Origin: Ilyonectria destructans
Taxonomy: Eukaryota; Ascomycota; Sordariomycetes; Hypocreales; Nectriaceae
Length of the DNA: 64,000 nt
Assembly: GCA_020740775.1 (NCBI GenBank)
Contig: JAHEWK010000005.1
Location: 2,852,001 to 2,916,000, forward strand
Direction: 5' to 3'
The notes beneath the pieces are model-generated. The model saw only the letters and a program-made list of their open reading frames with translations, made no database searches and was not told the DNA's origin. The position numbers were made by a program, and so were the translations under genes. Below are positions 2,071-45,670 of the stretch, one piece after another. Each line of letters begins with the position of its first letter. Positions within the stretch are counted from its first letter, which is position 1.

Positions 2071-2962
2071 GCCTTTGTCAGCGACCAGATGTGTCGCGAA
2101 TGTTGGTGACTGCTTTGTGTGATCTGGAGGCCAGTAAACATGAACGACCACGAGGACATATCGTTGAGACAAGTGTTAATTATATGGCAACTGTGGTTTG
2201 CGTGTCCCATACTCCGTATCCCCTCCTCCGTATGCCGGACGCCGCACGCCGTATGCCGTACTCCGTATTCCGTATTCCGTATCCGGGAATCTCGGATTCT
2301 ACTGTCCTCCGATCCGCCGTTGCCAAATACAGACTAGCTGATAAGTTGGCCTGTTTCGTCGAGCGGTAAAGGAAACAGCAGCCTCAACTGACATGGTGCT
2401 GAAAATTTTAAACTTGGAAGATCAGGCCACGCAACATAATGAGCTTGATAGGCCGACGAGTAAATTATCTAATTTGCTTTGGCCTATTAACTTGAATAAC
2501 AAAAAGTGATGCTCTCCATGCAGGCAGAAAGCATTGGAATGAACGAGCAAATCTAGTAAATTAGATCTAAATCAATAAGGGGTGTGTACTGCTTTCGACG
2601 CTCCCAGAGGGTACCCTCGAAATATATTGGCATGTTTAGAGTAACACCTTGATTACGAACATCCAAATTCTGCTTATCAGTAACCAAATAGACTAAGGGT
2701 GTCGGTCTGATACAATGCACCCCTTCTTGAGAACTGCATACTCTCTTTATCTAAATAGTTTTCTCATTGGGATGCAGTATATAGAGATAGCCTCGCCTTA
2801 ACGATGGGATTGCAGTGACCGACTGTATTGTCGTAGACCTGTCCTACTGCAGAAGAAATACCCCGCCAGTGACACGTGACTTAATGGCTTACCTTGAACG
2901 CTATCCCAAACCGGGTCCATGTGCGGAAGTTGAATCCTTATTCCGCATAGGTGCCCTCCAGC
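2071..2962. other. Intergenic stretch with a CCGTAT-rich tract
   Basis: No gene is supported. Positions 2213-2290 hold a degenerate array of CCGTAT and CCGTACT hexamer-like units. The rest is AT-rich spacer leading to the Zn2Cys6 gene and probably includes its promoter. Confidence 0.35.
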
Positions 2963-4165
2963 ATGTCGACAAGAAGACCACACACCAAGTCCCAATTGGG
3001 ATGTATACGCTGCAAAGAAAAACATGTCAAATGCGACGAAGTCCGGCCAATTTGCGGAGCTTGCGCCCGTAACAAAGTGCCCTGCATATTAAAAAGCTCC
3101 GCCAATCGCGGTAAAACCGCCACGTCAAACGCAAAACGAACGCGCTCAACCAACGCTTCTCCTGCTTCCATCCCCGACACAGTTCACCAACCAGCGCATG
3201 ACGCACTAGAACTAGCTGAAACTTCGTTGCCACTATTGTCAAATCAGCCTGGTGTACCTCGGAGTGGCTTCAGCATGTGGGAGTTTGATCTGTTACATCA
3301 TTATACAATTCATGTCACCGACACTTTCGACTTGACCCCAAGACTTCACAACCTCTGGAGAGATCGTGCCGTTAGGGAAGCGACACGACATGAGTTCCTC
3401 TTGCACATGACCTTGATGATATCGTGTCTCCATCTGGCACTGACGAAGTCGCCACGATATGCTGATAGCCATCACCGCTTTATTTTGTCTGGTTGCTCCA
3501 ATGCGATGAGTTGGTTTCAGCAAGAAATGGAACATGTTGACGAGTCGAATTTCCGGGCAGTAGGGCCATTTGCCTTCCTCATGTGCGTTTATGGCTTGGC
3601 TCTTCCACTGGTTGATGAAACCCGTAAGATTGCCGATATGGTCCTAGACGACATGATTCAGGTTTTAGGCCTCCTTCGGGGGACTGAGAATCTTGTCAAA
3701 GGCACACGTCAGCACGATGAGCAAGATGATGAGCCTTGGTCAAACGAAGAGGACTTGCGGGACATTTCCGCAAATATTTCTGAAGACTTTGATATTGAAT
3801 CCGTCGTCAGAACCCTACGCGCGTATGTCAGCTCGTCAGACGACGACGCTCGTGTTCGAGTAGTCAACTACAAGGCGATCCATGGCTTTGAAACTTCATC
3901 TGATCTCAACTTCAAGCTATATCTGAGGCCATTCATCTGGCCGAATTTTATCGACCTTGAGTACCTTGATTTACTCAAACAAAGAAACCCCATAGCCATG
4001 GTCATTCTTGCCCACTACGCAATCACTCTTGGGCAGTGCAGTTCGCAATGGTGGTGTGCAGATTGGGGGGTGAGACTCGCATCGGCTATTTCGGCCCTTC
4101 TTCCGGATACTCATTCGCAAGCAATCGCTTATCCGCTAGAGAAATTGAATATTAATTCCATATGA
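2963..4165 (+). CDS. Zn2Cys6 transcription factor, sterol-uptake-regulator-like
   Basis: Intronless 400-residue ORF. The N-terminus has a full binuclear zinc cluster with spacing CX2CX6CX6CX2CX6C: Cys14, 17, 24, 31, 34 and 41, preceded by basic residues (TRRPHTKSQLG). A basic linker follows, then a mostly helical region without an obvious fungal_trans signature. The overall form, a short protein with the zinc cluster at the very start and a C-terminal helical domain, resembles the UPC2/sterol regulatory group of fungal regulators. Such proteins bind CGG-type half sites as nuclear regulators; the target genes are unknown. A GTG 12 bases upstream is in frame, but the first ATG at 2963 is preferred. 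The nearest intact gene downstream is an RTA1-like protein on the same strand; in yeast RSB1/RTA1 genes respond to lipid stress, so a regulatory link is possible but speculative. Confidence 0.85.
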   Translation: MSTRRPHTKSQLGCIRCKEKHVKCDEVRPICGACARNKVPCILKSSANRGKTATSNAKRTRSTNASPASIPDTVHQPAHDALELAETSLPLLSNQPGVPRSGFSMWEFDLLHHYTIHVTDTFDLTPRLHNLWRDRAVREATRHEFLLHMTLMISCLHLALTKSPRYADSHHRFILSGCSNAMSWFQQEMEHVDESNFRAVGPFAFLMCVYGLALPLVDETRKIADMVLDDMIQVLGLLRGTENLVKGTRQHDEQDDEPWSNEEDLRDISANISEDFDIESVVRTLRAYVSSSDDDARVRVVNYKAIHGFETSSDLNFKLYLRPFIWPNFIDLEYLDLLKQRNPIAMVILAHYAITLGQCSSQWWCADWGVRLASAISALLPDTHSQAIAYPLEKLNINSI

Positions 4166-16724: not shown

Positions 16725-19673
16725 CTAATTCTCTTGGAGATAGTTTGTCCATATTCGTAGGATCTTCTCAACCTCTTGGTTCATTCGCTCCGTCGCTCCA
16801 TCCGTCTGTGGGTGGTACGCCGTCGATAGCCGCTGCTCGATCTGCAGCAGTTTGCAGAAGTGCTTCCACATGTCGCTGACAAACTGGGGCCCACGGTCAC
16901 TGGTTATGGCTGTTGGAATACCATGGACCGGGTAGTGCCGTTCGAAGAGTCTCTTAGCAACCGCTTCCGAGGAGATATCGCTCATGCCTTCGAGTTCGAC
17001 GCCTTTGGTAAGCCGGTCTGTGACTACCATGCAGTTCGTCGCGCCATCCCGTCCCGATGGTGGGAGGTCCGTAATGAAGTCGATAGTGACCTCGCTCCAT
17101 ATTCGTTGCGGAATGGGTAATGGCTTCAGGAGCCCTCTCTTCGTGTCTCTCCAAATGGTGTTCCTTCCGCAGACCTCACAGTTACGCACGAATTGGCGTA
17201 CTTCGCTAGCTGCGCCCGGCCAAAAGAAGCGTCTCGACAGAATAGAGTACGTAAGGTCTCTCCCCGGGTGCCCGGTAATGTGGGAGTCGTGTGTTGCTTG
17301 AATAATCTTCGTGCGCAGCGGCTCAGAGTTGGGTATCCAGACACGATTCCGGAAGCATAGGAGACCTTTGTCATCCAGTGAGCATTCTGAGATACTCACA
17401 ACCTTCTCCTTTTGCAACTGTGTCGGTAAGTTCTTCTCTCCATTCGCTACTAGCTTCGTGAGTTCCTGGTAGAGCTTGTCCTCTCGGCGTGCGGCGTCCC
17501 AAAGTTGCTGCAATTCCTGGTCCTCGAATAGCCTGATATCCTTTTCGAAATCAAACTCCAGGGCGCCCTCAGTGTTGGTGGAAACTGTCGAGATGCGTAC
17601 CCTTCTAAGATGGTCGTCCTGAAAGAGCCTCATAATGCGTGCCTTGAGCCGCTCGTCCGAGTAGTCGGCTGGCATATCTTGGTCTCGTCGAGAGAGCGCG
17701 TCTGGCAGTCCAGCCTTCTTTCCGGGTCTCCATTCGAGTGTGAAATGGAACCTGGATAAGAACTCCGACCATCGTACTTGTCTTTCCGTTAATCTTCTCT
17801 CCGAATAGAAGTATTTCAGATTCTGATGGTCCGTGAGGATCCTGAAATTCTTCACAGCTCGCAGCTCTGGTTCCCATTGCTCCAGACACCTTACAATAGC
17901 AAGCAGTTCCTTGTCGTGAATAGCGTAGTTGACCTCTGCTGGCGAGTGTTTCTTCGAGAAATAGGCGACAGGCCGTAATAGTCCGTCTTCGTCGTCTCGC
18001 TGGGAGAGGACACCCCCAGTGACAAATCCTGAAGAATCTGCCTCCACGATAGTCTCTCTCTCCGGGTGGAAATGAGCTAGAATAGGGGCCGTGATCAACA
18101 GGTCCTTAAGCTTCTCAAAGGCTTCTTCGCATAGGTCGTCCCAACGGAAGGGTACGTCCTTTTTCGTTAGCCGTATCAGCGGCTCTGCTATCTCTGAGAA
18201 CTCAGGCATGAAAATCCTATAGAAGTTCGCGAAACCGATAAAGGCTCTAACGGCTTTTACGTTCGTTGGCGTAGTCCATTCCTTGACAGCCTTGACCTTC
18301 TCAGGATCGACTCGGATCCCGTTCTCCGCCTCGATAATGAACCCGAGATATTTCACCGTCTTGACTTCGAATTCGCTCTTGCTGATGTCTAGCTGTAGCC
18401 CAGCATCCATTAGGCGTTGGAGGACCCTGCCGACTTTGTCGCGGTGGTCTTGAATGCTTCCAGAAGAGAAGATCAACACGTCGTCGATGTATGCTGACAC
18501 GAAATCGTCTAGGTAGTCTTGGAGCACGCTGTTGATATACCGTTGAAAGGCTGCGGGTGCACCTGTCAGTCCAAATGGGACTACCAGCCATTCAAAAGAT
18601 CCGTAGCGTGTTCTGAAGGCCGTCTTTTCTTCGTCTCCGGGGGCGACCCTGATCTTGTGGAATGCTGCTATAACATCTAGCTTCGTGAACCACTTTGCCT
18701 TTGCCACAGTGCGTAGCGTTTCGTTGAGTAAGGGCAGCGGATAGCGGTCCTTCTTGGTGATGTTGTTCAGTCCTCGGTAATCCACACAAAAGCGAACGCC
18801 TCCACCAGGCTTTTTCACCATGAGAACCGGTGCCGCCGCGGGTGAACTGCTAACTCTGATAAACTCCTTGTCGAGAAGCTCTGTAAGTGTCTTCCGCAGT
18901 ACCAATAGCTCTTCGCGAGACATGCCATAAAGCGGACCCCAGGGTAGGGGTTTCTCGCGGCCGTGTTCGTCTCGTAGGACTTCGATCTTCAGGTCAACGC
19001 CTGGCCTGTGGGGAGGTAACTGGTTGGCCAGTTGTCGAGAGAAGGCTTGTAACCACTTGTGGTAGTGTGGTGGCAACTTCTCCACTGGGTCGATCTTTGG
19101 TTTCGGTCTCAAGGCTTTGTCGATGTCCGCCATCGTGACGGCATAAACTCCAACGCCGCCTGTACGTCTGTTGCGGCGCACGTCGCCTAGAAAGGCAGCG
19201 GCCATCACCTTCGAGACCTCTAGTCGAGGGGGCCGATAGCGTTGTCGGTCTTGTACTTGAGCTCCACTGGTTCCGATCTCCAAGTATCCTTCCTTCGCAT
19301 GAATGTGAACATCTTGATCTTCCATCCATCGTTTGCCTAGAATCATATCCCAGTTAAGGTCGTCAATGACGTACATAAATACACGGCGCTGTTGGTGTCC
19401 GTCTAGGTCGATCGATAAGTAAGTGATCTTGTCGATCTTAACCTCCTTGCCGTCTCCTGCTGCATTCTCGAGGATGCGAGGTTGAACAGGTATATGTGGC
19501 AGCTGAAGAGATTGGAAGGTCCGTTTGCTAACCGCGCCGTAGCAGAGGCAACCATAGTCGACGAGGGATGGTACGAAGTCCGTTCCATTCACCCTAACGT
19601 CTGCTATGAATGGATCTCCATCCATTCTCTTTTTACCGGTTGTCTCCCATTCTCTCACAGCCGCCGCGTGTTC
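16725..19673 (-). CDS. pol: pol: protease, reverse transcriptase, RNase H, integrase core
   Basis: Open from the codon after the gag TAG. The first ATG at 19658 gives 977 residues. Visible features: aspartic protease-like region with DYG (residues 34-36) where DSG or DTG is usual; reverse transcriptase with FCVDYRGLN, LDVIAAFHKI and YIDD at residue 390; RNase H with EADSSG and TDHQNLKYF; integrase zinc-binding H..H..CX2C, and catalytic Asp/Asp/Glu in TIDFITDL, TSDRGPQF and TERMNQEVEK. The frame stops at TAG 16725-16727, before the integrase C-terminus. It is in the same frame as gag, so expression would need stop readthrough or an internal start. Reverse transcription takes place in cytoplasmic particles. 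Confidence 0.92.
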   Translation of the reverse strand, partial: EHAAAVREWETTGKKRMDGDPFIADVRVNGTDFVPSLVDYGCLCYGAVSKRTFQSLQLPHIPVQPRILENAAGDGKEVKIDKITYLSIDLDGHQQRRVFMYVIDDLNWDMILGKRWMEDQDVHIHAKEGYLEIGTSGAQVQDRQRYRPPRLEVSKVMAAAFLGDVRRNRRTGGVGVYAVTMADIDKALRPKPKIDPVEKLPPHYHKWLQAFSRQLANQLPPHRPGVDLKIEVLRDEHGREKPLPWGPLYGMSREELLVLRKTLTELLDKEFIRVSSSPAAAPVLMVKKPGGGVRFCVDYRGLNNITKKDRYPLPLLNETLRTVAKAKWFTKLDVIAAFHKIRVAPGDEEKTAFRTRYGSFEWLVVPFGLTGAPAAFQRYINSVLQDYLDDFVSAYIDDVLIFSSGSIQDHRDKVGRVLQRLMDAGLQLDISKSEFEVKTVKYLGFIIEAENGIRVDPEKVKAVKEWTTPTNVKAVRAFIGFANFYRIFMPEFSEIAEPLIRLTKKDVPFRWDDLCEEAFEKLKDLLITAPILAHFHPERETIVEADSSGFVTGGVLSQRDDEDGLLRPVAYFSKKHSPAEVNYAIHDKELLAIVRCLEQWEPELRAVKNFRILTDHQNLKYFYSERRLTERQVRWSEFLSRFHFTLEWRPGKKAGLPDALSRRDQDMPADYSDERLKARIMRLFQDDHLRRVRISTVSTNTEGALEFDFEKDIRLFEDQELQQLWDAARREDKLYQELTKLVANGEKNLPTQLQKEKVVSISECSLDDKGLLCFRNRVWIPNSEPLRTKIIQATHDSHITGHPGRDLTYSILSRRFFWPGAASEVRQFVRNCEVCGRNTIWRDTKRGLLKPLPIPQRIWSEVTIDFITDLPPSGRDGATNCMVVTDRLTKGVELEGMSDISSEAVAKRLFERHYPVHGIPTAITSDRGPQFVSDMWKHFCKLLQIEQRLSTAYHPQTDGATERMNQEVEKILRIWTNYLQEN

Positions 19674-20993
19674 CTAGTCTGAATCTCCGTCGCTCTGGAG
19701 AGTGGCATCTTCGCCTTCTTCAACGATCGCGGCGTTGGTAACCGAGGGGCGCGAGGGGGCTGCGGCGTTGACTTGAGTGCGTCTGGTTACGCTCCCGGGC
19801 CGAATAGGTGCGGCTAATGGACAGCGTTCGATTCTGCAGTTATCTCTTCCGCAACGGAGACAACGTCCTTCGCGGTAGCGTGCATCCATTTCATCCTGAT
19901 CGACCCACTTGGCACGCTTACCGAGCAAAGCCTGATCCTCTGGTCGCCTGGACTGGTAGCCATTCGTGTTCTTGCCGCCGCGGGTGCGCCCAGCGTTTAC
20001 TTGAGTGGATGCTTGTGGGGTTGGCTCCCATTCCATCATGTCCTCTCTTCTGACCTCAGCCTGCTGGACATGCTGTTGCTGAGATCTCTGGCTGCTCTGA
20101 CTACCGTGGTTGTCCAAGCCCCTCGTGTTGCCGCGAGGTTTCTTCCACTGGCCTAACAGTTCCATCTGGCTGCTAAGCGAGTCGCACCTCTTTGCCAGCC
20201 CAACGTAGGTGCTAATCGCGACGGAATCAGAGCCTATAAGAGCGGCCTTCATTCTGTCGTTTAGTGCCTCCTGGAGGTAAGAAATCTTGCTGTCATCTGG
20301 CCAATATTCGGCATTGGCGTTGGCGATCTCTTTCTCGAAACGAGGGTAGAACGAAGTAAAGGGTTCGTTTTCTCCTTGCTTAATCGAGTGCAGGTTGCGA
20401 GTAGCTCTCTGTTTACGATCCTTCTCTCCGTACAACAGTTCAAGGCGGTTGAGCAGTTCAGCCACATTAAACGTCCTCTTCTCAATTTGCATCTCCACAA
20501 AGGTGGTCACATTGTCTTTAGCCTTGCCTTCCAGGCTCATAAAGACATACATAAAGTGGCCCTCTGCGTCTCCGAGGGCTTCGCCGTCGACTCGTAGCTT
20601 CCCTTCGGTCTCCAACTTCCAGCTACGCCACTGGGACTTGTCACCACTGTACTTCGGGACATCTCGCAGCTTGGGGCGCTTGGTCGGGTGAGGACTGTAA
20701 GTGATAACCGTATTGGCGGGATCGGCGGTGATAGAAGGGTTGGTAGTAGTGTTGGGAGTGACAGGAACAGCGGTTGTCTTATTGTCTTCTGGCGCCAGCG
20801 TGGGCGCTGGTGTGGGCTGTATAGACTGGATGGACGTTTCCAGTGCTAACAGCTTCAATTTCGTTTCCTCATTTGCCTCTCTTAGGGCCATATTCTCGGA
20901 CCGCATAAGCCTGACTTCGCTCAAGAGTTGCTCGAGTACGCTAGCCGACTGGCTAGTGGTTTCCCCCTGAGTCATGCCGTCTGAGTGGTCCAT
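19674..20993 (-). CDS. gag: gag: capsid/nucleocapsid-like protein
   Basis: 439 residues from ATG 20993. An N-terminal coiled coil (VLEQLLSEVRLMRSENMALR) is followed by a Pro/Thr-rich linker, a central retrotransposon gag region (YSGDKSQWRSWKLETEGKL, FTSFYPRFEKEI) and a C-terminal zinc-knuckle-like motif, residues 378-391, of the form CX2CX4CX4C; the usual His is replaced by Cys. It ends in an acidic tail and a TAG (19674-19676) followed directly, in the same frame, by pol. Gag proteins form the virus-like particle and bind element RNA. Confidence 0.9.
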   Translation of the reverse strand: MDHSDGMTQGETTSQSASVLEQLLSEVRLMRSENMALREANEETKLKLLALETSIQSIQPTPAPTLAPEDNKTTAVPVTPNTTTNPSITADPANTVITYSPHPTKRPKLRDVPKYSGDKSQWRSWKLETEGKLRVDGEALGDAEGHFMYVFMSLEGKAKDNVTTFVEMQIEKRTFNVAELLNRLELLYGEKDRKQRATRNLHSIKQGENEPFTSFYPRFEKEIANANAEYWPDDSKISYLQEALNDRMKAALIGSDSVAISTYVGLAKRCDSLSSQMELLGQWKKPRGNTRGLDNHGSQSSQRSQQQHVQQAEVRREDMMEWEPTPQASTQVNAGRTRGGKNTNGYQSRRPEDQALLGKRAKWVDQDEMDARYREGRCLRCGRDNCRIERCPLAAPIRPGSVTRRTQVNAAAPSRPSVTNAAIVEEGEDATLQSDGDSD

Positions 20994-21040
20994 TATTCTT
21001 CTTCGCTTGTGGCTTCTGGTGCTTCTAACTTCTTAACTCC

Positions 21041-29264: not shown

Positions 29265-30907
29265 ATGGCGTCGCCAACTAATGATGTTGAGATGGTGGCC
29301 GAGAAGGGCGCCACCGTGAGCTCCGCGCCCTCAGCCGAGGACAACACGAGCAGGCTTGAGTCAGATGCGCCCGCACCCTTCCTCAAGTCGCTCAACAACC
29401 GCATCGAGGGTCTCGCCGGCCTCGAGGCGCGAGGCATCGAGCGCGTCCCTCCCGATGAGCGCCAGCCGGCCTCGCACGCTGCCGACCTCCAGGTCGCCGT
29501 GCTGTGGTTCAGCGCCAACTTGTCTCTCAACAACCTCGCCACTGGCCTCTTTGGCCCCATGGTCTTCGGCCTGGGCTTCTTGGACAGTGCTCTCCTGGCT
29601 GTGTTTGGAACTATCCTTGGCGCATGCTCGACTGCATACATGGCCACATGGGGCCCGCAGAGTGGAAACCGAACCATGGTGAGTAAATCCTCTCGACCTT
29701 AGATGCGACCATGACTGACTCGGATGCTGCAGGTTGTCTTGCGTTACTTCATGGGGTACTGGCCGGCCAAGCTGCCGACTCTCCTGAACGTTGTTCTCAT
29801 GGTCGGCTACACTACGATTGATTGTATCATCGGTGGTCAAGTCCTCTCTGCCGTGAGCGGCGGTAGCATGACTATCCTAGTCGGTGTTATTGTCGTTGCT
29901 ATCGTGACATTGTTCATCGCTGTCTTTGGCATGGCAATCTTCCACAAATATGAACGGTATGCTTCCATGCTTCGCTGCATGAGTAATATCAAACTGACAT
30001 GTGTCCCAGATACGCTTGGATCCCGCAGGTCATCGCCCTCTCAGTCCTCATCGGCGTCGCTGGCCAATACTTCGACGCTTCCGCTCAGCCCACCGTGACC
30101 GGCTCTACACTCGCTGCCAACCGCCTTTCCTTTTTCACCCTGTGCTTCTACGTGCCCAACTCCTGGGCTGCTGCCGCGTCTGACTTCTACGTCTACTACC
30201 CAGAGCGCACCTCGCGGGTCAAGATCTTCCTGCTCACCGTCACCGGCCTGACAGTGTCTTTCAACCTCGTCTACCTCATTGCCATCGGCCTCGCCACCGG
30301 TCTCGTCAACAACCAAGCCTGGTCCGACGCCAATGCCATCAGCACCGGCGCCCTCATTGTTGCCGCCTTCGAACCCCTCCATGGCTTCGGACGTTTCTGC
30401 TCCGTCATTGTCGCCCTCGGTGTCATCGCTAACAGCACTCCGTCAATCTACTCGGGCGCCCTGGGATGCCAGGTCCTCGGCCGCTACGGAAAGGCCATTC
30501 CCCGGTGGACCTGGTCCTGTGTCCTGACTGTGATTGCCCTGGTCCTCGCTATGGCTGGTCGTGAGCACCTGCTCGTCATCTTCCAGAACTTTGTTGCCCT
30601 CATGGGTTACTGGGTCATGCTCATGATCTGCATTGTCGGAATGGAGCACTGGTTCTTCCGCGGCCGCCAGGGCTTTGACTGGGCTGCATGGGAGGACAAG
30701 TCGTATCTCCCGGTTGGATGGGCTGCCCTTGCAAGTTTCATTATTGGCTGGGTTGGTGCTATTCTCGGTATGTCCCAGGTCTGGTACATCGGCCCTATCT
30801 CTGTGGCCGCCTCCGCGGCAGATCTCGGTATGTGGCTGGGCTGCGGATTTGCCATTGTGGTATTCCCGCCTCTGAGATATCTCGAGATGAAGATTTACAA
30901 GCGTTGA
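29265..30907 (+). CDS. NCS1-family purine-cytosine permease (Fcy2-like)
   Basis: Three exons (29265-29678, 29733-29956, 30010-30907) give 511 residues. After a hydrophilic N-terminus comes the family block GIERVPPDERQPA, then hydrophobic helices including LQVAVLWFSANLSLNNLATG, FGTILGACSTAYMATWGPQ, the SGNRTMVVLRYFMGYWPAKL block, and FYVPNSWAAAASDFYVYYPE. About twelve membrane segments fit. Fcy2-type proteins are proton symporters for cytosine, adenine, guanine and hypoxanthine at the plasma membrane. The preference of this one cannot be read from sequence. The gene looks intact with strong codon bias toward C-ending codons, suggesting good expression. Confidence 0.92.
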
Positions 30908-31936
30908 AAATGCCCAACACTATAATAAGATAGATGCTGTATATATTACCGAGTCTTTTATAGACGCCTCCAAGAATGCTTCCTTAGCTACCATTAACAC
31001 GATATTCTCTAGATGAGACCTGTATCATTATTCAAAGATCTGAGGCTCCAATAGTTGTACCATTCCCGAGCCTTGGCAACTTGGTTCTTGATTCCTAGCT
31101 GGCGGCTCATGTCGCTGGCTATCGAGCGACGTTCGAAGCTGATATATGCATTGTGCGGCCGTGATACACCACGTTCGAGCAAGGTAGCATGCATGAGTAT
31201 ACCAATACAGAACCCCATCCGTCCCCGAGCAGTGGGAGCAGCTACACTAAATTTAAGGATTTCAAGACAAGCTTGACTCGGTTCTATGGTGCTTGCGGTC
31301 TTGTCGCAGGACCTATGCGGTTCTACTAAGGTGTAATTACTACGTACGTGGGTTTGGGGTATGAGAGCATTTAGTTAGGTGTCTAAAAACCCCAGCCAGC
31401 CCTCCGGCCAACCAGTAGCAGGGTGCATTTCGCATCTTTCGAGAGACCCGCGCAGTCGGCGTAGTCCCTAAACAGTCCTGGTGAACTAGAATAAGGCCAA
31501 AGTGCTATGTGTACCGTACTACTACAATTTAGTGGTGGTTCCGCCATTTTGCATGGTGCAATAGCAAAACTCCGCCCAGTCCCTCGGGCTACCCTGCACC
31601 ATGAGGCAGAGATGGGCGCCGACAAACATATTAGAATTTGGCCTCCCACCTCGGTATCTACGCAGTAATCTAGACTCTTCTCTGTCTATCCAGGAAGAAG
31701 TCTTATCACATCCTCAGCTCTCAGTTGTTGTGTCATCACAGCGCCTGCATTGATTGGTTGATGCCTCACAAAGGCGTCTTATTGGTGGCCTCGTTTCTCC
31801 TGCAGCATCTAGGAGGCAACCAGTCGCCTTTTTGTTGCCTGCCACATTTTTCTTCAAATCTTCCCCCGCTTCTCTACCGCGTGTTTATCATCCCTTCGAT
31901 AAGGGGGAACGTGGATGCCATTGTTCTGTCTAGAAT
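30908..31936. other. Intergenic spacer before the NLR gene
   Basis: No gene is supported on either strand; the short ORFs have no recognisable family. It likely includes the 3' end of the permease and the promoter of the NLR. Confidence 0.35.
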
Positions 31937-34900
31937 ATGGATCTATCCTGGATTCTCCGCCGACACACCCCCGCCACCCCATCCAGCAGCGAGCCGTTGA
32001 AACATGGCAGGACATTCCGTGTCCGTGGTGTGCCCCTCGCCTGGGACTCCGACACCTTGAAGTCATTCCTCACGGAACATGCCAATACCACCAGCCCAGT
32101 TATCAAATCTCTCGCCGACGAGATTGGTGGTCGCTCTAGCACCGCCACGGTTATCTTCCAGAATGTTCCCGTCCCGCTCCGGACGAAGGCATGGTCCATC
32201 CGGATATCGAGTACGACCGAGAACCAACCCGCTCGCGACCAATACCTTGCGCTCGACGACGACTTCCTCGGCATCACCACACTATACACCCCAAGCCCAG
32301 ATGATCATAAGATCGAGTAAGACATCAGCCGGAAGACGTAGCGTGTGCTGATTTCCTTAGCGTCATTGCATTATCCGGCCTCGGCGGGCACGCATTCGGC
32401 TCGTTTAAAGAAAGAGGCGGTGACTACATGTGGTTACGAGACGCCCTTCCATACGATATCACCCACAACAGCGCCGATACCCCAATAGCGCGGGTAATGA
32501 CTTACGGCTATGAGTCAAGGATTTCGCAGAGTAAGAGCATACAGAACTTGGAGGATCTTGCATCATCATTCCACACAGCCTTAATTGCGCTAGCTAGGGC
32601 CCCAACGACCAAACGGATCATTTTGATTGCCCACAGCTTGGGGGGGTTAATTGTCAAACAAGTGAGACTCTTTACACGTCTGATTATATCTGATATATCC
32701 TAATCCGAATGATAGGCCCTAATATCGCTATCAAAATCGAAGAGCGAGGACGATACGAAGCTTGCTCAAGCAGTATACGGCATTGTGTTCTTTGGAGTTC
32801 CACACGAAGGCATGGATACCAGCTCGCTTATCCCAATGGTTGGTGATGGGCCGAACCGGTTCCTTATCGAGTCAATTAGCCATATCAATTCGCAGATACT
32901 TGGCATCCAACAACGAGAATTCCACACAGCCCTGGGTAGTGAGGGTGACTCGGAGGTTTTCTGCTTTTACGAAACGCTTGAGTCGCCAACCGCTCATCAG
33001 GTTTGTCTCGTCGAATGCCAATATTTGTATAAACTAATGGAGAACAGGATGAGCATGGCAATTGGACAATGACTGGAGCGACTGCAGTTCTGGTCACCAA
33101 GTCCTCTGCTACACATTGTCGTCCGTGGGAAAGCGGCCCGGAGCATATATGTGCTATTGCCCGCACGCACTCCGACATGGTCAAATTTAGGCCTCAGGAC
33201 CATGAGTATGACAATGCTCGCGAGACGCTTAAGGGTCTTGTCCAACGGGCGCTCTCGGGACGGCGTCGGTTCCAAACTTCCCAAACCAATTGTATGTGAG
33301 ATAAACAAATGTTAGTGCTACTGCAGCCCGTGCTAAAACATTATAGTGGTCGTCCGGAATAATGGTGATCCAGATTTTGCTGGGAGATACCAGACTCCCG
33401 GGGGCCCCAAGCGGCAACTTAGCTTTGGAAAAGGTCAAGAGAGTTACGGTGTGGCTCCTAATCAGATGGACATCTCATCCTGGCAGAATCATGGTGAATC
33501 AAGCTCCTCTCGCCCTCCGAAGCGACACAGAGCCTTCCCCAATGACTTCGTCAATATGATTCATGGGCCGCAAAACGGTACGACTGCATCGCACAGTCGT
33601 TACACCATTGCATGGATCTGTGCGCTGTCTATAGATATGGTAGCAGCTCTTGCCATGTTGGATGAGCGCCATGACGACCTGCCTGTTTGTCCAGGCGACA
33701 ATAACATTTACAAGCTCGGCAGCATCAAGCACCACAATATCGTAGTCACGCAGTTACCAACAGCCCAGTACGGGACGAACGTATTATCTCAACTTATCCG
33801 TTCCTTCCCATCGACCCGTTTGGCCTTGATAGTTGGAATTGGAGGCGGAGTGCCGAGCAGAGTGGCGGATATACGATTGGGCGACATTGTTGTCGGAACG
33901 AGGGTGATGCAGTATGATACAGGGAAGATCCTCGGAGATGATCAGGCACAGTTCCCCGCCACTACCACGAGAGCTATCCACCAAACAGCCATGTCACTTG
34001 TATCCAACTTACGTTCAGAACAGGGGTTTGGCTTCAGTCGAGTCCCATCCATCTTGCGGACAAAGCTTGGTGAACGCTCTAGGTTCAGTCGCCCGAGTTC
34101 ACCGGATTGCCTATTCTCCGCGGCGTACGAGCATGCAGAACCAACGCTTGGCTGTGAGGGGTGCGAATGTTCGAAACTAGTACCACGAAGCAAACGGGAT
34201 TCCGACGATCCGGTTGTTCATTATGGTGGGATCGCGTCAGGGAACCAAGTCATGTGTAACGGAGCCATCCGGGACACTGTTGCTCGAGAACTGGATGTCA
34301 TATGCTTCGAAATGGAAACAGCCGGTTTGGGAGATCTCCTTCCTTGCCTTCCAATTCTGGGAATTGGCGATTATGCAGATTCTCATCGGAATATGGAATG
34401 GCAGGACTATGCTGCTGCAGCTGCATCTGCATACGCCAAGGAATTACTGGAGGCTTTGCCTCTGCCCCAAGCGCATGCACAAGCTAAGAATGTGCTTGAT
34501 CCTCGTAAGTTACATCCGTGGTCTTCGGAAGGCTTTCTGATCATCGAGACTTACTTCCAGTGAACAGAGCAAGATATATCAAGTGATCACCGGCAGCGAT
34601 TTCTGGACTCCCTCAAATTTGACCAAATCGACTCTCGCAAATTGAGTATTGAAACTGCTCTCGCCAAAACATGTCAATGGTTTCTCAGCCACCCCGACTA
34701 CCAAGCATGGCTTGATCCCAGGAAATTAACCCAGCACCACGGGTTTTTATGGATACGCGGCAAGCCGGGTGCTGGTAAGTCAACGATTATGAAGTTTTTG
34801 TACCTGAACATGAAGCGCAAAAGTCGGCGCAAGGATGCTATTACCGCCTCCTTTTTTTTCAACGCTCGAGGCGAATACTTAGAGAGATCGATGCCAGGAA

Positions 34901-37104
34901 TGTACCGATCCCTTCTACTCCAGCTGCTTGAAGGGTACCCTGATCTGCAGACAATATTAGACGATGACGACTTGATTTCACGGCGTCATGGCTTCTGCCC
35001 TTCCTTGAATGTCCTCAAGGAGGTTTTTTCTAATGCAGTTTCTAGTCTAGGGCGACGTTCATTCACTTGCTTCGTTGATGCCCTAGACGAGTGTGATGAA
35101 CAACAAGTTGTGGATATGGTTCGATACTTTGAAGAGCTAGCAGAACAATCCACAAATGATGGCATCCTTTTCCGAATTTGTTTCTCCAGTCGACACTATC
35201 CCCACATCGACATACAATCGGGGATCCCACTTACACTGGAGGATCAGTCAGCTCATACTAGAGATTTAGAAACCTACATCTTAAGTCGCCTCCGAATCAA
35301 AGACCTAGCACTTATTGAAGAACTGCGATCTCAACTTCTCGAGAAAGCTGCTGGAGTTTTCCTGTGGGTTGTCTTGGTTGTCGAAATTCTCAACCAAGAA
35401 AACCGAAATGGTCGACTGGCTCTGAGAAAGAGACTCAAGGAAATTCCAAGCGGTTTGAGCAAACTATTCAACAACATCCTGACGCGTGACAAGGAGAATA
35501 TGGAGTATTTCCGGCTTTGCATTCTCTGGATTCTCTACGCAAAGCGTCCTTTGCGGCAAGAGGAGTACTACCATGCTCTCTGGTCTGGTTTGTCTCCAGA
35601 GGGTCTGGTTGATCCCGAAATTCCTGATCTGACTGCCTCAGATGCTACCAACCGTGTCAAGGCATTTGTCATCAGCTCATCGAAAGGACTTGCTGAGATT
35701 ACGAAGTCCAAGCAGCCAACCGTGCAATTCATCCATGAATCCGTCTCAGACTTCTTGGTCAAAGATAAAGGCCTCCAGGAGTTGTGGCCTGATCTTGGGC
35801 TTGACGGGGTGATTCAAAGTCACGAGAGGCTCAAACAATGCTGCAACACTTACATGATGCGTCATCCAGTGCGTATATGTATGGCTACCGTCCATGAGCG
35901 AAATGAAATCCTAAAGGAGTACCCTTTCCTGGAGTACGCCTGTCAGCAGGTTCTCTACCATGCTGACGCTGCGGTGGGTGCGGCGGATGCGATTTCTCAA
36001 CAGAACTTTTTGAGCCACTTTCCTATCCCTTACTGGATCAGCATCGCCAATCTTTTCGAAAAGTTCGAAGTTCATCATTACAGCCCGGATGCAAGTCTTT
36101 TGTATATTCTTGCAGAAAAGGGGTTTTCCAGACTCATCCGCACATTACTCAAAGAAGATCCACGTATTCATTTTCTAGGAGAGCGATACAGGTATCCGTT
36201 GTTTGCTGCTTTGGCCAACGGTGAGAAGGAAGCTTTTGCTGCTCTTCTGGGTCTACCCTCGAACATTCATAACGGAGTCGACATTACAGAGGGCTTAACG
36301 TACAGGGAAGCCATTTCAGGATTCGAAGATTTCACACCACTATCTTGGGCTGCCCAGAATGGCCGGACAGCCATTGTTGAGCTGCTTTTTCAGAAAGAGT
36401 CGGCTATCAATCAGATGGATAAGGGCGGGCAGCAGCCGCTTTCACGGGCTGCGAGGGGCGGTCACGAAGCTATTGTAAGACTGCTTATTGATAAAGGAGC
36501 AGATATCAATGCTCGTGATGCATTCAAGTTTACACCACTTTCACGGGCTGCGGGGGGCAGTCACGAAGCTATTGTAAGACTGCTTATTGACAAAGGAGCA
36601 GATATCAATGCTCGTGATGCATTCAACTCTACACCACTTTCAACGGCTATAGAAGGCGGCCACGATGCTATTGTAAGACTGCTTATCGACAAAGGAGCAG
36701 ATATTAATACTTATGATGGACTCTACGATACACCACTTTCAACAGCTACAAAACGCGGCCACGAGGTTATTGCAAGACTGCTTATTGATAAGGGAGCAGA
36801 TATCAATGCTTGTGGTGGATTTAATGATACACCACTTTCGCGGGCTGTGGGGGGCAGTCACGAAGCTATTGTAAGACTGCTTATTGATAAAGGAGCAGAT
36901 ATCAATGCTCGTGATGCATTCAACTCTACACCACTTTTAACGGCTGTAGAAGGCGGCCACGAGGCTATTGCAAGACTGCTGATTGATAAAGGAGCAGATA
37001 TCAATGCTCGTGATATATTCGACGATACACCACTTTTAAAGGCTGTAGAAGGTGGTCTCGAGGCTATTGCGAAGCTTCTTGTCGACAAAGGAGCAAATAA
37101 ATAG
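31937..37104 (+). CDS. NLR-like protein: alpha/beta-hydrolase, PNP-UDP phosphorylase, NACHT, ankyrin repeats
   Basis: Six exons (31937-32316, 32361-32661, 32716-33000, 33048-33291, 33347-34504, 34568-37104) join in frame to 1634 residues. Residues 127-340 resemble the lipase-like effector of fungal NLRs: VIALSGLGGHAFGSF, nucleophile elbow AHSLGG with Ser219, and VFFGVPHEGMD. Residues 489-775 form a nucleoside phosphorylase-like domain (TIAWICALSIDMVAALAMLD, ALIVGIGGGVPS, CFEMETAGL, GIGDYADSHRNMEWQDYA). The NACHT has its P-loop GKPGAGKST at 854-862 and Walker B FVDALDE at 958-964. Ankyrin repeats run from about 1376 to the end. Such proteins are intracellular sensors that oligomerise and switch on their effector domain. 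Two effector-type domains in one chain is unusual. The intron at 34505-34567 must use the AACAG acceptor; the nearer CCAG would shift the frame into a stop. Confidence 0.85.
36430..37100 (+). repeat. Near-identical 99-bp ankyrin repeats
   Basis: About seven 33-residue units share RLLIDKGADIN almost unchanged. Variation is concentrated in the AFNS-like turn and after TPLS. DNA-level identity between units is also high (for example the GATATCAATGCTCGTGATGC blocks), suggesting recent duplication or gene conversion. Confidence 0.9.
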
Positions 37105-37883: not shown

Positions 37884-39526
37884 ATGACGCCAATCACATT
37901 AATGAAAGCTGACAAGACATCTTGGCACTACTTTCCCCCAGAGGTTCGACTTATGATCCTACAAGTCTTACTGCAGGACGGTTGTAGCTTGGCTGGCTTG
38001 GCTACGGTGTCGCGAGAGTGGCAGCGTATCATTGAGCGGCACAACTTCGCCCGAATCACCCTGACACCGTCACGCCTCGCCGATTTTGGTTCGATTATTC
38101 ACCGTAATCGGGCTCTCGTAGGCTATATATGGCTTTGCTTGGAACTCCGAGAATATGGGTGCGACGAGTGTGCGTCTGAAGAGACAGAGGCGTGGTGCTT
38201 CAGGGAGACGGAGAATATCCTTATTATCACGGCATTCCAGGATCTGTTCTCAACTCTCACCACATGGGAACCACGAGGCAACTTGCTGCTCGATATCAGC
38301 GTTTACTCGCCCAGCGACTCCGAGCATTGCTTCAAATATCTGACATTTGGGCCTGATATTCCTTCCCACGAGTGCGGCCGGGATCGATGCACAGAGCTGT
38401 CGATATTGGCCAAAGTTGACGACCGCCAGCACGGTTGGAATGCTGGCCTTCGATGTGTCGCTCCGGAAAGCACAGCTTTTTACAAAGTCTTCGGGGAAAT
38501 CATGGGCGAAGGGCCGTTCGATGATGAGGAGTCCGAAAACCAATGGTGGCAGTCGCTGCCATTAATCCCGGTAGTAACAGGTGTGCTTCTACGTCAACAG
38601 AACCGCCGACGATGGAAGCCGATCGCGCTGTCGCATATATTTGCCCGTCTTCCCAGACTCCAAGAGATCCACTACGAGCCTTGGAGGGAATGGGACTGCT
38701 ATCCGCAGCGGTTCACAGATGGAAGTGAGTGCTGATGTGTTCGTTTGTCATTCTCTGTCATGTGTTCGCTGCAATGTTGACCGATGACCACCTACTAATC
38801 CTCATCTTTGATGTAGATTACCAAACGCTTCTAAATTCGCTCGATTCTAGCCAGCTACGGAAACTCGTACTCTTCGAGGATTTCAATGAACAGTATCCAG
38901 GTAGTTTTAATAAATTAATTTCTATAGCAACAACCCCTACCGAGATTATTCGAACCCCAACCTTTAGTCTCAGTCGAACGGTCGCCAACACTAGTCTCAA
39001 GCTTGAGCACCTCTCAGCGTCGTTCATGGTGGAAGCCGAATATTTCTTCTATGCTCGTGAACCTTCCTGGGAGTGGCCCAACCTGACTTCGCTTGCGCTG
39101 ACTTCACAGCTGCTCGCGCCCGATGAGAGCCCGGAGAATATTGACGACATGCTCCAGGAAGCGGCAGCAGCGGCCATGAAAATGCCAAATCTTGAAACAA
39201 TGGAGATATGGAACGGACGAGAGGGATTGGCGATGCTCTTCAGGTACCAACAGTCCATTGGGAGCTGGCAGCCATCTGTGATAACCTTGAGAGGAACATG
39301 GGAATTCGCTATGCAGGCTCCTACGATTCGGGCTTGGGAAGCCGTCGCATTTAAACACCATGGCTGCGGGTCCGTTATTGTCAAGGAATTGCTGGATGTT
39401 GGTGTTATCCAGTCCCATGGTGATGCAATCCACCATTTGAAGCTCTCGAGTACGGTAATTCGGCCCGTTTCGTTACGGCAGATTCGGATGGAGCACAGAA
39501 TTCGTGTGGGGGTGGTTGACTGGTAG
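37884..39526 (+). CDS. F-box-like protein of the DUF6546 type
   Basis: Two exons (37884-38724 and 38817-39526) over a 92-bp intron (GTGAGT..GATGTAG) give 516 residues. An N-terminal F-box-like stretch (WHYFPPEVRLMILQVLLQDG) is followed by SLAGLATVSREWQRIIERHN, ALVGYIWLCLELREYGC, TTWEPRGNLLLDISVYSPSD and FARLPRLQEIHYEPWREWD, the order seen in a fungus-specific F-box-like family (DUF6546 from memory). F-box proteins usually recruit substrates to SCF ubiquitin ligases; for this family that is untested. In-frame TTG and GTG lie just upstream, but the ATG at 37884 is the first ATG. It follows the NLR gene; no functional tie is shown. Confidence 0.82.
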
Positions 39527-43726: not shown

Positions 43727-45670
43727 TCAAGCGAAGTGAGGGGCATTGAGGAAGAGACCCATGGTGACACCACCCAGAGTTCCAGCAATGGGGATAGTCA
43801 TGATCCAGGCCAAGACCAAGAGACCGACTCGCTGGAAGTTGACAGCCTTAAAGGTGCCGTTGCACAACCCGACACCGACGGTGGCACCGGTAATGCACAT
43901 GGAGGTCGATACGGGAAGAGAGAACTGAGAGAAGAGGAGGACGGTAACAGCAGCACCCATCTCCATGGAACAGCCTCGGCTGGGAGAGTGATAGGTGATC
44001 TTGTTGCCCATGACTATTAGATTCGTTAGTAAACTTGGTCATAATACGTTTTTATCTAGCTGATGGTCTCTTACCCTTCATGATGTTGTAACCATATGTG
44101 ATGAGACCCAGAGAGATAGTGGCAGAGAGGACAGCCAATTGCCAGACGGGGACTGTGGCTTTGGCCTCAGCGGCATCCCCAGTAGACCAGGCGCCATAGA
44201 TAACGGCCCAAGGGCCGACAGAGTTTCCGATATCATTGGCGCCGTGGGCGAAGGAAGCAGTGCAAGCAGTCAGGACCTGAACGAAAGAGTAGGTGTGCTC
44301 GACCTCGTTGGGATACTTCTTGGCGTGGGCATAGACACGGGCCATACGCTCACCCTCGGGAGTACCAGAGATACCGCTCTGAGCAGCATGGATATCGTAG
44401 TGGAGGCCGTAGAGAAGGCCGCAGGTAATCATAGCGGGGATACGGATGAGAAGAATGCGGATGTTGTCCAACTCATACATCTGGCCAGGCCCCATGGGGT
44501 TGTTGTGCAGAGTGCGCATAGCCCAGCCGAGGGGGCCGGCCTTCTTGCGGAGAGAAGCATGGAACTTTTCTTGGCCCTTTTTCATGAGGTCCTTATAAGA
44601 GGCCTGGTTGGTCTCGGCAGCGACGAGGCTCTTCTCGCTATTGTCGACATTCTTGCCGGCATCACCGGCTTCAGTGATGGAATCTGCGGTGATGGAATCG
44701 GGAGAGTTGGGGGGCTCGTCATCCTCATCGTGGTGCTGAACAACGGCGTAATCGGGGACTCGAGCATGGATAGCGTCGGCAGGAGGGGTGCGAGTGAAAA
44801 GGAGAGGACCCATAAGGAACATATACCACTTTACAGTATAATCCTTCTTGAGAATTCTAGCGTAGACGAAGGGGACGAAGAAAAGAGCGGCGAGGGTAGC
44901 GACACCAATGCCAGTGCCCATCGTGACGGAAGCGACATACCACGAGGGCTTCTTGTTAAGGCCTAAGTTAGGGGAACCCTTGTAGACAATAGAAAGGGTG
45001 CAAATAGTCCCGGCGATTAGGAAGAAAAAGGGCGAGGTCCAGACAGCCCAGGGGACGGGGTTCTTGCGCATATGGACGACACCCTTGATGAGCATGAAGA
45101 TAGTGGCACCGAAACAGGCAGAGATGGCTGGAGCCATGCCGAGACCAGCAAAGATGGCACCGAGACCCTTACCACCATTCCAGCCCCACTGGACCTGCGA
45201 GGCGCCGACGGTAGCAACACCGACACCAGCGACGGCAGAGATGAGAGAGTAGGTGGAAGAGACGTGGGCGGAGTGCTTGGTGCACCACATGACCCAGGAC
45301 GAAGCAGCGGCGAGAGCGCAGGTAAAGGCAAGCATCTGGACGCCGGCGTTGCCCTGGAAGGCCTCGTTGGGGATGATGCCGTTCTTGATGGTATCGGCGG
45401 TTCGGGCACCGACGGTGATGGCACCGAGCATCTCGAAGACGGTACCAAAGATCATGGCCTGTCGATAGCTGATGGATCGGGAAGATACACTGGTGGCCCA
45501 GGCGTTGGCGACATCGTCTGTGAAGGGTAGTCAGTATTGAGGGGATAAGAGAATGCAGATGGATTTGTGTGGCAGGGGATGAGGTACTTACTAGCACCGT
45601 TGTTGTAGGCATCCAGCATGGCAAACATGGTGCCAATGGCAAAGATGTAGTCATATTGAGAGAGCGTCAT
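43727..45670 (-). CDS. PiT-family phosphate:cation symporter (PHO-4/PHO89 type)
   Basis: Three exons (45670-45592, 45517-44075, 44013-43727) give 602 residues. The first intron splits the N-terminal PiT signature, which on joining reads GANDVANAWATSVSS. The C-terminal half has the duplicate signature FAHGANDIGNSVGPWAV. About ten to twelve membrane helices flank a long hydrophilic loop (about residues 250-360, acidic then basic). The family takes up phosphate with Na+ at high pH and is repressed by phosphate in Neurospora (pho-4) and yeast (PHO89). CACGTG E-boxes, the site type of NUC-1/Pho4, lie 340 and about 1310 bp upstream of the ATG, consistent with phosphate control. Confidence 0.93.

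Follow-up and report, generated by a model that had tools for sequence, protein, structure and literature searches.

A candidate two-enzyme NLR gene of Ilyonectria destructans, probably made by fusion of two receptor genes

Introduction

Can one fungal receptor gene carry two different enzymes in front of a single ATPase and a single sensor, and how would such a gene be made? This question is raised by a locus in the 71.7-Mb assembly of Ilyonectria destructans. In the window analyzed here, the whole stretch of 64,000 nucleotides (nt) from contig JAHEWK010000005.1, a gene at 31937-37104 on the forward strand is predicted to encode a NOD-like receptor (NLR) that begins with a SesB-like alpha/beta hydrolase, continues with a purine nucleoside phosphorylase (PNP)-like domain, and ends with a NACHT-type ATPase and ankyrin repeats. 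With a probability of about 0.7, we read it as one gene for a fungal NLR with two enzymatic effectors, made by fusion of receptor genes, whose enzymes would be switched on together. According to passages of PMC10197012, which cites PMC9815663, fungal NLRs with two consecutive effector domains have been described and synergy between the domains has been suggested.

Gene Model and Domain Content

Translation of the six spliced exons gives 1634 residues with a single terminal stop, and the first ATG is preceded in frame by a stop at 31931. All of the five introns are GT-AG introns, of 44, 54, 47, 55, and 63 nt. A sequence-only reading of this DNA had proposed that canonical introns put the hydrolase, the PNP-like domain, NACHT, and the ankyrin repeats in one frame, and that the joins across introns 4 and 5 preserve this frame; both proposals are borne out by the spliced translation, and the Ser219 elbow, the intact P-loop, and the Walker B motif that it named are present (Table 1). 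Among the nine AG acceptors listed for intron 5, those at 34567 and 34573 restore the frame, and the former fits the relative P0085 better (...HQDLSNNHRQR). An acceptor at 34560 was rejected, as it gives stop codons.

Hidden Markov model searches of the 1634-residue product detect the ankyrin repeats and NPHP3_N (E 1.4e-30, 107.1 bits against a cut-off of 24.8) above the Pfam cut-offs, and NACHT PF05729 (17.4 against 26.7 bits), DUF676 (18.3 against 20.3 bits), and PNP_UDP_1 (16.5 against 25.1 bits, for the single protein) below them. Both enzyme domains are, however, supported by fold models and alignments. For the hydrolase, the relative P0232 is 80% identical to the query over 98% of the module, and its predicted structure (predicted local distance difference test, pLDDT, 91.8) has an alpha/beta-hydrolase lipase fold. 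Ser219, Glu313, and His363 constitute the predicted catalytic triad, as judged from conservation and from the strand order in this model. No PDB sequence matches the hydrolase profile at E 0.01.

For the second enzyme, the predicted structure of the exon-5 product (385 amino acids, pLDDT 71.7) retrieves futalosine hydrolase and MTA/SAH nucleosidases in Foldseek, with a best E of 2.5e-12. Furthermore, close relatives such as P0085 carry a PF01048 listing, and PADLOC effector profiles match the domain (the PN-superfamily label at 8.1e-06 and PDC-M60C at 9.8e-13). A PDB search with the whole-length PNP alignment gave, among the 60 rows shown, mainly ankyrin chains and TPR chains of kinesin light chain. 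The Met-Glu motif and the Asp listed in Table 1 presumably have the catalytic roles assigned to them in the PNP/MTAN superfamily. By alignment, both predicted active sites are intact in the query, and the PNP domain probably degrades nucleotides. In the sensor, ankyrin units 2-7 are 74-97% identical to one another at the DNA level.

A separate beta-alpha-beta-beta-alpha-beta unit at residues about 24-105 (about 32000-32250 of the window) is seen in the P0232 model and is conserved in the hydrolase family; we take this order to be typical of RRM/ferredoxin-like folds. The N-terminal 95-110 residues of the hydrolase module have no Pfam match in the query and one weak Ish1 match in a homologue (E 0.051), and no PDB sequence matches them at E 10.

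Table 1. Features of the receptor gene and of its surroundings, in window coordinates.
Feature	Position	Strand	Detail or basis
Exons 1-6	31937-32316, 32361-32661, 32716-33000, 33048-33291, 33347-34504, 34568-37104	+	
SesB-like alpha/beta hydrolase module, residues 1-403	31937-33291	+	exons 1-4; translation, relatives, fold model
Ser219 codon, predicted nucleophile	32635-32637	+	HSLGG, residues 218-222; motif, conservation, alignment
Glu313 codon, predicted catalytic acid	32971-32973	+	near-invariant column (E309 of P0232), strand end in P0232 model
His363 codon, predicted catalytic histidine	33168-33170	+	invariant column (H359 of P0232), alignment
Intron 4	33292-33346	+	55 nt, phase 1; between hydrolase and PNP exons
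NB-ARC exon-start relic, residues 404-417	33347-33387	+	LVVRNNGDPDFAGR against consensus FLVPYNKNPDFVGR; gapless alignment
In-frame internal ATG, residue 441	33466-33468	+	aligns with start of stand-alone PNP-NACHT-ankyrin paralogues
Cryptic GT-AG stretch	33578-33722	+	145 nt; removal nearly yields P0248 tail and would destroy PNP frame
PNP/MTAN-like nucleosidase domain, residues 486-780	33592-34476	+	exon-5 model, Foldseek, motifs
Met726-Glu727 codons	34312-34317	+	aligned with 4bmx and relatives
Asp745 codon	34369-34371	+	aligned with 4bmx and relatives
Intron 5	34505-34567	+	63 nt; alternative acceptor 6 nt downstream (34573), also frame-preserving
NACHT-type STAND ATPase (NPHP3_N), residues 824-998	34669-35193	+	Pfam, motifs
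P-loop GKPGAGKS, residues 854-861	34759-34782	+	motif
Walker B CFVDALDEC, residues 957-965	35068-35094	+	motif
Eight ankyrin units, residues 1379-1634	36334-37101	+	Pfam E 3e-54; seven full-length
Zn2-Cys6 transcription factor	2951-4162	+	
DUF6546 protein	38729-39523	+	
PHO4 phosphate transporter	44055-45530	-	

The Hydrolase-PNP Join

The architecture depends on intron 4, and this intron has counterparts. At four of the seven other hydrolase loci viewed in the same genome (L010, L016, L027, and L014, on C12, C6, C67, and C45:2704k), an intron follows the hydrolase at the identical place and in the same phase 1, and the next exon starts with an NB-ARC-like FLVPY..N.DFV.R. The loci L015 and L024/L025 are without a donor at that site, and the remaining one, L028, has no intron there (see below).

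In the query, the PNP exon opens with a similar stretch. When 18 residues (404-421) were scored against a profile of NB-ARC exon starts, made from 55 distinct examples picked by motif among 67 proteins, position 404, the first residue past the join, was the top-scoring window of the whole query. None of 9470 windows from eight PNP-NACHT-ankyrin proteins matches this score, and among 100,000 shuffles a fraction of 0.00038 does so; the version of I. robusta is weaker (0.0078). From the shared position and phase of the intron together with the relic score at residue 404, intron 4 is ancestral, and the gene keeps the scar of a lost NB-ARC domain.

The join is also crossed by proteins of relatives. 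In the I. robusta orthologue P0001, the hydrolase (present from residue 260) leads across this join into PNP, NACHT, and ankyrin repeats, with identities to the query of 139/144 residues in the hydrolase and 32/37 in the linker. The public open reading frame (ORF) of another relative, P0248, is without introns 2-4 and runs in frame across the join with a 12-residue deletion in the linker; its start is the first ATG left if intron 1 is unspliced. P0248 thus reads like cDNA, as would be obtained if an ORF were predicted from a transcript that crosses the join with some introns still unspliced. Taken together, these comparisons of DNA and protein support the hydrolase-PNP join at intron 4 well.

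Origin by Fusion

Within this genome, the PNP domains that match best, those of L030, L031, L032, and L033, are 60-63% identical to the query, and no protein match begins before about residue 443. The proteins of L030-L032 have their start Met aligned with residue 441 and a stop 8 codons upstream, while L033 is open further upstream. Since the paralogue starts align with residue 441, the ATG at 33466 is probably the old start codon of a PNP receptor. The sequences thus support a scenario in which a break in the first ATPase exon of a hydrolase-NB-ARC receptor gene, after about 14 codons, was followed by in-frame fusion to an entire PNP-NACHT-ankyrin receptor gene, with the old hydrolase/ATPase intron kept as the join. 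The rest of the linker gave only a 27-nt match (E 0.055) to the 5′ flanks of PNP paralogues, found in three related ones, and this match was not used.

A Second Pairing and a Survey of Two-Enzyme Proteins

This genome holds another pairing of the two enzymes. Locus L028 on contig C7 encodes, by our own gene model, a hydrolase-PNP-NB-ARC-TPR protein of 1504 residues, in which the C-terminus of the hydrolase and the whole PNP domain lie within one exon, with no intron between them. The C7 PNP is 38% identical to that of the query. In the PNP tree, C7 falls among PNP-NB-ARC receptors, and the query groups with I. robusta and PNP-NACHT receptors (7 rows, 100/99); in the hydrolase tree, C7 pairs with P0089 (99/85), the sister of the query is unresolved, and the two are not grouped. 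By these comparisons, C7 is an independent second hydrolase-PNP pairing. The PNP tree holds 69 of 141 rows after thinning, with matches shorter than 230 residues dropped, and the hydrolase tree 75 of 143 thinned rows (212 before thinning), with rows under 250 bits or 240 residues dropped, including P0001 and divergent Monosporascus/Corynascus hydrolases; both were rooted at the midpoint, and bootstrap had not settled in either. The conserved position and phase of the intron, the relic of the ancestral exon, the I. robusta orthologue, and this second independent example together support the single-gene, two-enzyme architecture, and by these sequence comparisons the gene is real.

A survey for other hydrolase-PNP receptors, also proposed in the sequence-only reading, was based on three protein searches yielding 351 distinct proteins (the best 120 of 582, 120 of 414, of which 111 were new, and 120 of 251). 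Among these, BLAST at 1e-6 finds both domains in at least nine (P0001, P0055, P0124, P0126, P0129, P0131, P0138, P0242, and P0263), and in P0136 both were recognized by eye. The order is reversed, PNP then hydrolase, in P0055 and P0263; no ATPase match was found in P0242 and P0263; and P0055, P0242, and P0263 may each result from merging of gene models. The hydrolase common to P0124, P0126, P0129, P0131, and P0138 is a different one, with 22-28% identity to that of the query or C7, and P0136 has a similar one. In the hydrolase tree, the query, C7, P0055, P0242, and P0263 have five different positions, the latter four beside hydrolase-NB-ARC receptors. Both active sites are complete by alignment in 4 of 11 two-enzyme rows (query, C7, P0124, and P0263), P0001 and P0248 being partial; in P0001 the hydrolase is without its first half, and FEMET is replaced by FGMET.

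Two side observations concern public gene models. P0033 (Clonostachys, 2468 residues), which may be a merged model, starts with PNP-NACHT-ankyrin and, as seen by eye, has another PNP-like stretch in its last part. Some seemingly stand-alone hydrolases that end in Cys-Met may be cut-off NLR gene models.

One Receptor or Other Arrangements

Several observations weigh against a single two-enzyme receptor, some at the join and others in the active sites of relatives. At the join, the P0001 model does not begin until residue 260 and misses the Ser elbow, and it includes part of intron 5 as coding sequence. The P0248 tail would require a splice that destroys the PNP domain; in the window, the corresponding tail has a stop in place of the Ser of P0248, besides a few other differences; and the database lists P0248 under the source code "lgn" without explanation. 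No I. destructans protein for this gene was found among the matches listed, and proteins of 709-898 amino acids fell outside their coverage. The locus could be divided into a hydrolase gene ending ...TNCM before a stop at 33297-33299 and a PNP-NACHT-ankyrin gene starting from the ATG at 33466. Indeed, if intron 4 is retained the frame reads Cys-Met-stop, giving a 405-residue hydrolase; 10 of 120 listed hydrolase proteins end in CM; and paralogues of the PNP-NACHT-ankyrin half have their start codon at the corresponding Met, three of the four viewed with an upstream in-frame stop. However, CM-stop is what any retained phase-1 donor T|GTATGTRA spells, and L010, L016, and L027 spell it too in front of their NB-ARC-like exons. 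Moreover, the frame is open from the intron 4 acceptor through to the ATG and opens with the NB-ARC relic, P0248 spans the join, and the intergenic gap would be only 166 nt. Signs of this kind, a product ending between the hydrolase and PNP exons or a separate start near 33350, had been named beforehand as arguing against one gene; both have a counterpart in the DNA, the stop and the ATG, and a fusion history explains them better than two live genes do; two adjacent genes are quite improbable. Chance neighborhood of a hydrolase and a PNP gene was rejected as an account of the architecture from the intron position, the NB-ARC relic, the one-exon C7 example, and pair statistics: with 29 hydrolase and 93 PNP loci, approximate numbers after merging genome matches, two same-strand pairs lie within 300 nt (59 and 91 nt between matches) against 0.0056 expected, and these are the only ones within 6 kb. 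A hydrolase locus on C35 has PNP matches on the opposite strand, 3.3 and 5.7 kb away. Alternatively, one locus may give several products, that is, the hydrolase alone by retention of intron 4, the two-enzyme receptor by full splicing, and a hydrolase without a working PNP by the cryptic 145-nt splice. The clean 405-residue product fits this idea, as does P0248, which nearly matches loss of 33578-33722 with retention of intron 1, but the P0248 splice may be noise or error, and we regard this arrangement as rather unlikely.

The other doubt is whether both enzymes work. The Ser elbow is unaligned in P0126, P0129, P0131, P0136, and P0138 (Monosporascus/Achaetomium models), by a skipped stretch or a real loss; P0126 has Tyr for the PNP Asp, the His of P0138 is unaligned, the PNP motifs of P0055 are lost, and the PNP of P0242 ends before its motifs. 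Thus, in these 7 of 11 two-enzyme rows one or both sites are damaged, missing, or cut off, as would be expected if a fused protein had one working enzyme, usually the PNP beside the ATPase, and the other were a passenger being lost. Single-effector controls are altered as well, P0085 having Asn for the PNP Asp and P0033 having FETET, so that decay of the PNP site is not special to two-enzyme proteins. Against a passenger, both sites are intact in the query, the part of the hydrolase covered in I. robusta is better conserved than the PNP (96.5% against 87.3%), and gaps in public models may be annotation errors; such a state of the query is therefore doubtful, and a receptor with two effectors remains the preferred reading.

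Neighborhood of the Gene

The receptor gene is preceded, at a distance of about 1 kb, by an ORF with a cytosine/purine permease match (PF02133) at 29987-30904 on the forward strand. A retrotransposon at 16728-21032 on the reverse strand consists of two adjoining ORFs (982 and 452 amino acids) with reverse transcriptase, RNase H, integrase, and gag matches. Other genes are listed in Table 1. An Rfam scan of the window gave none at the gathering score.

Discussion

In the proposed mechanism, the ankyrin repeats would sense a nonself cue, the NACHT ATPase would oligomerize, and this clustering would switch on both enzymes. The SesB-like Ser-Glu-His hydrolase may then attack membrane lipids while the PNP domain may cleave ATP or related adenosine compounds at the N-glycosidic bond, and the cell would die by membrane damage plus energy loss. 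ATP is a putative substrate by analogy with the family: PNP domains of bacterial immunity are described as cleaving ATP in passages of PMC11249213, PMC10197012, and PMC12881547.

By gene model and comparison, the query fits the class of double-effector fungal NLRs, which is already in print. As far as passages of Wojciechowski et al. (2022; PMC9815663) and Daskalov (2023; PMC10197012) go, these also have, at the N-terminus of a single STAND receptor, two different domains in succession; however, their examples are C2/Goodbye-like and protease/membrane-targeting, whereas the query combines a hydrolase with PNP. This pair and its repeated origin were not found in the passages of the literature searched. 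The PNP_UDP/NACHT/ANK receptors of the Pa_2_8180 and Pa_3_8560 type, as given in passages of PMC4986451, match the downstream three quarters of the query and have no hydrolase in front. SesB-like/NB-ARC/TPR receptors have the hydrolase exons and the following intron in common with the query, in which the ATPase and the sensor are replaced and about 14 residues of the NB-ARC exon are left. Bacterial PNP ATP nucleosidases (Detocs, in passages of PMC11249213) similarly have a PNP-superfamily effector in an immune protein, but with a different sensor and no lipase partner, and ATP specificity of the query is putative.

It is possible, as a tentative extension, that selection has repeatedly rebuilt the pairing of lipase and nucleosidase: twice in one genome (with NACHT-ankyrin and with NB-ARC-TPR) and in up to four further fusions suggested by public proteins, in both orders. 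The membrane and the ATP pool would then be attacked together, and splicing of the fusion intron could choose between one weapon and two.

Annotated-protein surveys may undercount two-enzyme receptors, because public gene models can hide the architecture; for example, the public I. destructans model of the C7 gene (P0122, 947 amino acids) begins inside the PNP domain. The locus shows a possible route of NLR birth, exon-level fusion of two NLR genes, with the intron and about 14 relic codons as its scar. If both enzymes do fire, fungal immunity would have a built-in two-hit form of killing, which blocking one route would not disarm.

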